A stretch of 64,000 nt of DNA from Beijerinckia indica subsp. indica ATCC 9039 (lineage in GTDB: Bacteria > Pseudomonadota > Alphaproteobacteria > Rhizobiales > Beijerinckiaceae), in contig NC_010581.1 in NCBI RefSeq assembly GCF_000019845.1, positions 1,555,501 to 1,619,500 of the forward strand. Direction: 5' to 3'. The translations under genes and the position numbers were made by a program. A model generated the notes under the pieces. That model made no database searches and was not told where the DNA came from. It worked only from the letters and a program-made list of their open reading frames with translations. How positions within the stretch are numbered: position 1 is the stretch's first letter; each line of letters starts with the position of its first letter. Shown piece by piece: positions 50,661 to 52,060 of the stretch.

Positions 50661-50981
50661 TCACAGATGCGGATGGGAAGCGGCCGGCCGGGCCAATGGC
50701 ATGGCCGGCAAGGTCTTCCTGTCTGCCGTCTTGCCCGATTGATGCGTCTTTTTCGGGATCATTCGTTCGGAGTTCGCCCGCCTTTGGGGCGCCGTGCCAT
50801 GGGTCCGCGGAAAAACTAGAATGGCGCAGGGTTGGGGGTTCGATGGGGGAGAGCCTGTCTCGCTCGTGGGACAGGAATCGGCCTGTGCGTAAAGTAAATC
50901 GATTTCCAAACGTTCATCGGCTGCTTTCGCATCCGCACGCGCATAGAGCGCTTCGATCAAGGCAATCTCCGGATCAACCAT
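50661..50981 (-). CDS. small hypothetical protein under an S24-type operator
   Basis: 106 aa from the ATG at 50981 with GGGG upstream; a longer frame reaches 51047 but crosses the predicted promoter. The N-terminus VDPEIALIEALYARADAKAADERLEIDLLYAQADSC looks helical; the C-terminus is basic and Pro-rich and may be disordered. No family recognised. Its interest lies in the promoter, whose spacer and -10 are covered by a perfect palindrome shared with the repressor gene. Coding status is uncertain. Confidence 0.4.
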   Translation of the reverse strand: MVDPEIALIEALYARADAKAADERLEIDLLYAQADSCPTSETGSPPSNPQPCAILVFPRTHGTAPQRRANSERMIPKKTHQSGKTADRKTLPAMPLARPAASHPHL

Positions 50982-51013
50982 GACAAACCCCAAGGACTTC
51001 GTTTTCGATTTCT

Positions 51014-51044
51014 GTACTGTACGTTTAGTACAGTACGTAGTCAA
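51014..51044 (-). promoter_or_regulatory. promoter and overlapping palindromic operator of the 50661-50981 gene
   Basis: On the minus strand: -35 TTGACT (51044-51039), 17-nt spacer, -10 TACAGT (51021-51016), about 35 bp before the ATG. GTACTGTAC (51014-51022) and GTACAGTAC (51028-51036) form a perfect inverted repeat with a 5-nt centre that covers the -10 and spacer, the classical position for repression. Confidence 0.65.
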
Positions 51045-51045
51045 C

Positions 51046-51084
51046 ACGAAACGTACAGATCCAATTATTTTTTGTACGTTTCGT
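51046..51084. promoter_or_regulatory. second inverted repeat upstream of the same promoter
   Basis: ACGAAACGTACA (51046-51057) and TGTACGTTTCGT (51073-51084) are exact reverse complements 15 nt apart. They share the TGTACGTTT core with the first operator (51019-51027), so this may be an auxiliary binding site. Confidence 0.5.
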
Positions 51085-51274
51085 GGGTATTGCCGAGCAT
51101 GGGGAATTCGGTAAGAGGATTATCTCACGGTTTTCGATCGTGACTCGGGCTTTCCTCAATTGTGGATAATGATCCAGTCTGGCGCGAAGCTGGAACGTCT
51201 GACAGGCACGGGCCGCCAAAAGCAAATCCATTGCATTGACTGGAGAAGTTTTAGCGAGGGCCGAGCGAGGACGC

Positions 51275-51952
51275 TTACCGCTCCAAACGGCGGAAAGGTT
51301 TGCTCGGCTTGCGTTCGAGGAGCATCCATTCGCCGGCGCGGATATTGCCGAAAACCTTACAGGCCCATTCGATCTGTACGTTATGAATGGGGCTGGCATT
51401 ATGGCTGATAAGATCGAAACGATCCTTGCTGACGCGCCGGATGGTTTTGAGATAACGGCGGCCATCAGTCAGGCGAACGGCGGCTTCCCACCCATCGGCC
51501 TCGGTACGGGTCTGCGCGACTTTCCAGCAAATGACGATATCGCCCGGATCATAGCGCGGCCACATGCTGTCGCCGACGATCTCGAAAGCCACGGCGCCGG
51601 AGGGTGCCGGATAAGGGATCTGGACTTCATCAAAGCCGCCTGGCGGTTCCTGCTCGAACTCGGAATCGATCACAGCGCCCGCTCCGATCCGCCCAACGAG
51701 GCGAACGGTATATTTGGGCTCTTTCTCAGGGGCCTGTCTGTCTTCTTCGTTCTCGCCGGTCAGGAGCCAGGCGGCGGAAACATCGAAAGCCTTGGCATAG
51801 CGTTCCGCAATGGCGATACGCAGGCCGCGCTCGCCATTCTCATGACTGCGATAGGTATTTTCGTTCCAGCCGAAAGCACGAGCCGCTTCGGTCGCGCTTT
51901 CGAACCCGGCTTGCTGGCGGGCGATCTGCAATCTGTGAAAGGGCTGATCCAT
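51275..51952 (-). CDS. XRE-S24 repressor (LexA/CI-like, probably self-cleaving)
   Basis: 225 aa. The N-terminal helix-turn-helix of XRE/CI type covers about residues 8-60 (SATEAARAFGWNENTYRSHENG). The C-terminal S24 peptidase domain has the catalytic Ser129 in VGDSMWPRYDPGDIV and Lys169 in RRYLKTIRR. An Ala-Gly pair at residues 91-92 (GRIGAGAVI) lies where LexA and CI are cut, so RecA-stimulated self-cleavage is plausible. It is not the cellular LexA, whose alphaproteobacterial HTH and GTTC-type box differ. No phage genes surround it. Its own promoter carries the same GTACTGTAC palindromes, pointing to autoregulation. Confidence 0.9.
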   Translation of the reverse strand: MDQPFHRLQIARQQAGFESATEAARAFGWNENTYRSHENGERGLRIAIAERYAKAFDVSAAWLLTGENEEDRQAPEKEPKYTVRLVGRIGAGAVIDSEFEQEPPGGFDEVQIPYPAPSGAVAFEIVGDSMWPRYDPGDIVICWKVAQTRTEADGWEAAVRLTDGRRYLKTIRRVSKDRFDLISHNASPIHNVQIEWACKVFGNIRAGEWMLLERKPSKPFRRLER

Positions 51953-52006
51953 GGGCGGATGACTTGCCGGCTCGGTTGGAGGCGAAAGAGGTCAGGCTGG
52001 CGCAAG

Positions 52007-52060
52007 GTACTGTACATATAACGATCCTGCAAATGTACAGTACATTATCGCTGGATACAA
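52007..52060 (-). promoter_or_regulatory. autoregulated promoter of the S24 repressor
   Basis: On the minus strand: -35 TTGTAT (52060-52055), 17-nt spacer, -10 TACATT (52037-52032). ATGTACAGTAC (52033-52043) overlaps the -10, and its inverted partner GTACTGTACAT (52007-52017) lies just past the expected transcription start. The two 11-bp arms are exact reverse complements 15 nt apart and share the 9-mer with the operator at 51014-51036. Confidence 0.6.

Follow-up and report, generated by a model that had tools for sequence, protein, structure and literature searches.

What does a stand-alone phage-type repressor with matching operators do in the chromosome of a soil bacterium, and from where did it come? 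The locus that raises the question lies in a 64-kb stretch of the Beijerinckia indica genome, the whole of which is referred to here as the window. An original prediction had described an S24 (LexA/CI-like) repressor whose promoter, like that of a small gene, is overlaid by matched operators, and this outline is supported at the sequence level. The account that we consider probable goes further: the locus would derive by domestication from a lambda-like immunity region, of which it would retain cI, the promoter of cI and one PL-type outward promoter, but not cro, and its target would be a small gene that differs between genera. In sequence terms, that account is carried by orthology, identity to phage operators, layout, purifying selection and the clustering of operators at repressor loci.

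The repressor

The repressor gene (51275..51952, minus strand) encodes P0001, a protein of 225 residues with an N-terminal XRE-type helix-turn-helix (HTH) and a C-terminal S24 domain, each of which scores above its Pfam cut-off (HTH_3 and Peptidase_S24). P0001 also matches the PHROGs family of transcriptional repressors, phrog_4, at 1.8e-26. Its structural model, which is of medium confidence (pLDDT 78.8, pTM 0.54), matches the CI fold as found in phage 186 CI and lambda CI: all seven Foldseek matches at E < 0.001 are phage 186, lambda or hybrid repressors, with TM-scores of 0.30-0.38 for full-length proteins and up to 0.69, by target length, for C-terminal fragments. A sequence search of the PDB with P0001 returned nothing at 0.001. 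The catalytic features named in the original prediction, a Ser129/Lys169 dyad and an Ala91-Gly92 pair, are all present. P0001 resembles LexA as a repressor of the Ser/Lys self-cleaving type, but differs from it in the DNA-binding domain, which is a winged helix in LexA and XRE-type here. The window contains no exact copy of either the alphaproteobacterial LexA box, GTTC-N7-GTTC, or the SOS box, CTGT-N8-ACAG, in keeping with the proposal that the locus is separate from the LexA regulon.

Orthologues with 80-88% identity occur in Beijerinckia and in a second genus, g64 (the Methylocella/Methylocapsa genus, to which named loci correspond by identical promoter sequences). Beyond the window, 12 orthologous loci could be compared, 11 from g64 and one from B. 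mobilis, several of them representing the same species twice. The Ser and Lys are retained in 12 of 12, and the Ala-Gly pair in 10; the remaining two, L036 and L047, which are probably one species, have V-G. As a coding sequence, the repressor is under purifying selection, with dN of 0.04-0.07 against dS of 1.3-2.0 in five species pairs, or a dN/dS of about 0.03-0.05.

These residues bear on the nature of the signal. P0001 might be an ordinary XRE/S24 regulator that responds to a ligand or an antirepressor rather than to RecA, its Ser/Lys dyad inherited but idle. The V-G loci and the loss of the Ser from a second copy described below would sit comfortably with such a protein, as would the use of antirepressors by related switches, namely Gifsy (Lemire et al. 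2011) and DicA (PMC10448788). Retention of the dyad throughout the orthologous loci, and of Ala-Gly in most of them, is nevertheless hard to square with idle residues, and we regard this alternative as unlikely. A self-cleaving repressor derived from a phage switch remains our preferred reading.

Two promoters and their operators

Both of the minus-strand promoters proposed originally can be read from the sequence, each with a 17-bp spacer: that of the small gene has its -35 (TTGACT) at 51039..51044 and its -10 (TACAGT) at 51016..51021, and that of the repressor has its -35 (TTGTAT) at 52055..52060 and its -10 (TACATT) at 52032..52037. The inverted pairs of the 9-mer GTACTGTAC and its partner GTACAGTAC are likewise where they had been described, at 51014-51036 (51014-51022 and 51028-51036) by the small-gene promoter and at 52007-52043 (52007-52015 and 52035-52043, 28 bp from start to start) by that of the repressor. 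A search of the genome (4,418,616 bases) for exact GTACTGTAC-N3-22-GTACAGTAC returned these two sites in the window only, and its reversed control returned none. When up to one mismatch is allowed, the 9-mer has nine matches in the window against 1.34 expected, a number reached by 0 of 100 shuffles.

The 9-mer proved to be part of the operator but too narrow a definition of it. The full unit is a 17-mer of the type CTGTAC-N5-GTACAG, and a second copy lies over the -35. Read along the minus strand before the small gene, the arrangement is CTGTACGTTTCGTGTTG-(8)-CTGTACTAAACGTACAG: operator O1, CTGTACTAAACGTACAG (51017..51033, minus strand), covers the -10, and operator O2, CTGTACGTTTCGTGTTG (51042..51058, minus strand), sits 25 bp upstream of O1 and ends in the -35. 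O2 also overlaps one of the two 13-nt arms of a perfect inverted repeat (51045-51057/51073-51085), and a third, inverted operator-like half-site, TTGTACGTTTCGTGGGT, lies at 51072..51088 on the plus strand (inverted repeat I7).

To score these sites, we used a weight matrix composed of 14 operators from three phage loci (L084, L086 and L089) and no host site. In the window, O2 ranks first at 26.9 bits and O1 third at 15.7 bits (scored on the plus strand). Among 60 resampled windows the best score averaged 13.1 and peaked at 21.9, and seven of the 60 reached 16; O2 alone therefore stands out by score, and O1 only by its place. The half-site TTGTACGTTTCGTGGGT ranks ninth, and its 11.0 bits fall under the mean best of the resampled windows. 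Rank 2, at 15.8 bits, goes to an operator-like 17-mer, CTGTACGTTATGAATGG, on the plus strand within the 3' portion of the repressor gene (51374..51390); its function is doubtful. That intragenic 17-mer also scores high in B. mobilis (L033 3563-3579), and in the g64 loci scanned it is not one of the six best sites.

O1 is the sole CTGT-N9-ACAG in the window and the sole exact CTGTAC-N5-GTACAG in the genome. Its CTGT/ACAG core had been likened to the E. coli SOS box, unexpected in an alphaproteobacterium; we reject that likeness, as the spacing is N9 rather than N8, one base longer than in the SOS box, and phage operators match instead. Looser operator words are no commoner in the genome than their controls. 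With up to one mismatch, CTGTACGTTTYGT occurs in eight places, three at this locus, two at a paralogue on contig C2 and three strays, and the reversed control gives seven, so that the raw count is not in excess; CTGTAC-N5-GTACAG with the same tolerance occurs three times (here, at the C2 locus and as one stray), against 15 per strand for its reversed control. What stands out is the clustering at two repressor genes, which accounts for five of the eight CTGTACGTTTYGT matches.

Probably part of an immunity region

The nearest phage repressors, from phage Mwe-JY08 and two near-identical IMG/VR contigs, are 53-54% identical to P0001, within a range of 37-59% over the matched part for related temperate-phage repressors. 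In those nearest phages, 17-mers of the same type lie upstream of cI and at an outward promoter beyond cI. A broader viral scan covered 45 repressor loci, some of them duplicates of one another; with L168 and L178, which belong to contigs used for the matrix, and L169, near-identical to one of these, set aside, 42 further loci were left. Five of the 42 (L170, L174, L182, L183 and L195) have CTGTAC-type operators of at least 23 bits upstream of cI, and all of these except L183 have the outward pair too. The other 37 have no CTGTAC-type operators of at least 23 bits upstream; L184 carries a weaker CTGTAC form (17.9), and many loci below 23 bits show other words, for example CAATAC, CGATAC or GGGTAC. 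For random pieces of the viral loci, which may contain the loci's own operators, the 99% quantile was 20.6 and the highest score 26.3. An additional scan found the exact O2 17-mer in 20 viral stretches, three of which, in the parts fetched, hold a repressor homologue, two of them on contigs already known; it is not used as support here.

As a side observation, the phage repressors of L168-L212 share a TYRSHENG helix, and the operator-like words at these loci vary mainly in their first three bases; the triplets found before TAC (CTG, CAA, CGA and GGG) may form a set from which a specificity code could be read.

The likeness to phage extends to the sites themselves. The outward promoter of L174, CTGTACATTTTGTGTTG-(8)-CTGTACATATCGTACAG, and the second operator of L170, CTGTGCGATATGTACAG, match host promoters nearly or exactly, and the O1 17-mer of the g64 locus L034 is identical to one in L170. 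Operators in lambda are 17 bp long and spaced 24 bp apart. At seven phage or viral loci the pair spacing is 23-29 bp, with 24 in L084; between O1 and O2 it is 24 or 25 bp at all 12 of the orthologous host loci, and 25 both in the window and on C2. The locus recalls the lambda immunity region in its paired 17-bp operators over promoters, its outward PL promoter beyond cI and the CI fold of its repressor. It differs in holding the cI and PL half only, in its operator words, and in the gene after PL, which here is a small gene for which no phage relatives were found. Three phage loci were checked for the gene that diverges from cI, and each has a small carph-isopro protein in the position of Cro; its match clears the NCBIfam cut-off in L084 and L089 but not in L086, and PHROGs gives no match. 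The window's own genome has no carph-isopro match at E 0.01, in a search that gives matches in four of 14 control genomes, none above the cut-off. At L035 and L037, the gap between the repressor and the gene upstream of it is only some 115-125 bp. Because a divergent cro gene and PR were not found at the host locus, the locus can represent no more than part of an immunity region. The same comparison holds for the individual phage loci: Mwe-JY08 (L084), L086/L168, L089/L178, L092/L184, L170, L174, L182 and L195 share with the host the type of 17-mer and the order of repressor and outward promoter, but they lie on viral contigs, have the divergent carph-isopro gene (in the three checked) and have first ORFs after PL that are unlike the host small genes.

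Shared operators also invite the thought that the host keeps the repressor for immunity, as an orphan that blocks temperate phages with CTGTAC-type operators, the small-gene promoter being a sensor or a by-product. The operators common to host and viral contigs, and the strong conservation of the HTH, speak for such a role. Yet our searches turned up no phage that infects these hosts and carries these operators, 37 of the 42 further viral loci lack them at 23 bits or more, and a conserved outward promoter would be left unexplained; we think the idea quite unlikely.

Orthologues in changing surroundings

Among 397 sampled genomes of the family, nine have an orthologue of the repressor: both Beijerinckia and seven of the 15 from g64. 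An operator-pair pattern, TGTACRTTTYGTGTTG-N6-9-YTGT, was scanned in the 17 genomes of these two genera and is present in nine of nine with the orthologue and none of eight without it, the reversed control giving 0. The pattern was composed after viewing the orthologue promoters, so the nine of nine is partly by construction; what is independent of that choice is the none of eight, together with the absence elsewhere. A stricter CTGTAC pair, a form which overlooks orthologues whose O2 or O1 begins with T, occurs five times in four of the 397 genomes, every time beside a repressor gene, and its control gives 0.

Operators upstream of the repressor follow a different course. The pair at 52007-52043, which is presumed to be autoregulatory, has identical spacing in B. 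mobilis and is a Beijerinckia feature (two of two species); it is absent from the top 20 sites of the phage matrix in the window, and the exact GTACTGTAC/GTACAGTAC pair is not found in L034-L037 of the other genus. There the repressor promoter is arranged differently, with GTACARCACGTWTTGTTA directly before the ATG in nine of 11 loci and CTGTACGTTTTGCTATA in the other two. Since the -10 comes so near the ATG, the arrangement suggests a leaderless repressor mRNA in g64. The expectation that the palindromes would accompany orthologous repressors has accordingly held for the O1/O2 pair, in all nine genomes, and failed for the upstream pair outside Beijerinckia.

More distant homologues in other genera, at 43-51% identity, were considered as orthologues and rejected: the aligned part mostly starts at residue 18-24. 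None of the operator words searched for occurs in L005-L009, the flanks of which were read in part. Two of these loci, L005/L040 and L006/L041, represent a second chromosomal S24 family, 43-51% identical and with another N-terminus, and both have upstream a GcrA-like ORF, recognised by eye.

In the window, the repressor module stands beside aspS. All five neighbouring proteins scanned with Pfam are of host type, with no integrase or structural phage gene among them, as had been foreseen in the claim that no prophage genes are visible. In g64, an mrp-type gene and a moaA-type gene flank the module at L035, L037 and L141 (by Pfam for L141 and by eye for the others); an extra ORF intervenes in this setting at L036, and at L142 the mrp match is about 4 kb off. 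By blastn, L143 shares with L141 the repressor and promoter alone, and the neighbours at L034 differ from the mrp/moaA setting. In B. mobilis, mrp and moaA adjoin each other about 20 kb from the repressor, which is beside an integrase element. The setting of the module varies, and the repressor and its operators remain together. The B. mobilis element (L140 10474-18784, L144 77-904) carries an integrase, a MerR/AlpA-like regulator, an AAA helicase-like protein, an HNH nuclease and an ORF with a Terminase_6C domain.

Such an element, terminase-domain ORF included, is part of the case for a decaying prophage remnant, the switch being a fossil that no longer has a function, as are the clear relatedness to phages, the patchy presence in g64 and the unconserved later part of the Beijerinckia small ORF (below). 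A fossil, however, would hardly combine so low a dN/dS in the repressor, operators kept in all nine genomes despite changed surroundings, and an intact Ser/Lys dyad at every orthologous locus, and we judge this explanation very unlikely.

Different small genes behind one promoter

The presumed target of the operator-bearing promoter in the window is a small ORF of 106 residues, P0002 (50661..50981, minus strand), seen only in Beijerinckia. Between the two species, pS is 0.81 and pN 0.18 over codons 1-37, and pN rises to 0.72 over codons 38-83, so conservation is limited to about the first 35 codons. P0002 has no match in Pfam, NCBIfam or PHROGs, and its first 35 residues, compared with 37 genomes (g64 excluded), match the two Beijerinckia only, apart from two matches at E 0.7-0.9.

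The gene behind the same promoter in g64 encodes another small protein, with the signature SETAEYLxxMASEL...ERLSxLLDxVRxEAE and no Pfam match. It adjoins the repressor in seven of seven g64 genomes with an orthologue, evolves fast (dN 0.23-0.48), and was found in neither Beijerinckia genome. Of 60 relatives, 15 contain a weakly similar protein (E 2e-5 to 0.008), and none of the 15 has a close repressor orthologue. A comparison of the small genes of one genus with those of the other gave no support for homology, though both profiles are very shallow. Searches did not link the small genes to phages either: P0002-P0007, compared by blastp with the ORFs that follow PL at seven viral loci, gave a best E of 0.11, and P0003, a host small-gene protein, had no match among phages at E 0.1 or among plasmids at E 0.01.

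Some further observations concern the SETAEY protein. It seems to be internally duplicated in its core motif (L034 3979-4248, and the G246, G149 and G126 loci). A further, distant match to the small protein lies elsewhere in six of the seven g64 genomes with the repressor (G254, G126, G182, G167, G149 and G208), and one of the eight without it (G221) has a weak match.

That the small gene might encode a co-repressor or antirepressor of the S24 protein, like DdrR with UmuDAb, is suggested by the Acinetobacter layout of an S24 regulator with one small co-regulated gene, as described in PMC7273328, but the other genus has a different small gene, which is unexpected for a dedicated partner and makes the proposal highly doubtful.

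A second repressor on contig C2

The locus had been proposed to control one gene, and in this respect the proposal falls short. Contig C2 (181,736 bases), presumably a plasmid, encodes a paralogue, P0008, that is 53-55% identical to P0001 and has nearly the same HTH. Beside it (L039 6003-7777), on the other strand, lies a near-identical operator pair, CTGTACGTTTTGTGTTG-(8)-CTGTACGTATCGTACAA, about 100 bases before a divergent Haem_oxygenas_2 gene (Pfam E 1.5e-23). With such similar HTHs and operators, both repressors may read both loci.

In the alignment, P0008 has His in place of Ser129 and Gln in place of Gly92. It is probably an uncleavable partner, one that would bind the same operators and resist cleavage. 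Conceivably, P0008 could lock the switch off during damage and, together with P0001, give immunity to phages with these operators, a suggestion that is tentative and on balance unlikely. Non-inducible (ind-) repressors have been made in the laboratory. A predicted uncleavable P0008 with the same operators would be their natural counterpart.

A model and its precedents

We propose that the two 17-bp operators, spaced by 24-25 bp across the -35 and -10, are occupied by repressor dimers, which would thereby shut off the small gene, presumably in a cooperative manner. In Beijerinckia, the pair at 52007-52043 would let the repressor hold down its own expression. When DNA is damaged, RecA-stimulated self-cleavage at Ala91-Gly92 by Ser129 and Lys169 would release the small gene. 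The V-G loci count against the cleavage step. Counting against the wider account are the repressor's own promoter, which is not conserved between the genera, the change of small gene with genus and the patchiness of the orthologues.

The closest precedent is DicA and dicBp of the Qin cryptic prophage of E. coli, where a lambda-like repressor has been left in the chromosome and an adjoining PL-like promoter drives small gene products (PMC10448788). DicA is described there as a protein of 135 residues without an Ala-Gly bond, still in a cryptic prophage and with a Cro-like partner and an antirepressor retained. P0001, unlike DicA, has 225 residues with the Ser/Lys dyad and Ala91-Gly92, has no recognised cro, is common to two genera and, in the window, has no phage genes among the neighbours scanned. 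UmuDAb and DdrR of Acinetobacter offer a further likeness in a DNA-damage regulator that represses one small gene through an overlapping site; they differ in having divergent promoters and error-prone polymerases among the targets, and the abstract of PMC7273328 mentions no phage-type operator pair. In the open literature searched, we found no paper on the present locus.

If the account is true, a lysis-lysogeny switch has been pared to a repressor and one promoter and is maintained in several chromosomal settings. It would target a different small gene in each genus, with operator and repressor still matched. With two promoters and one protein to consider, the locus would make regulatory domestication directly testable.
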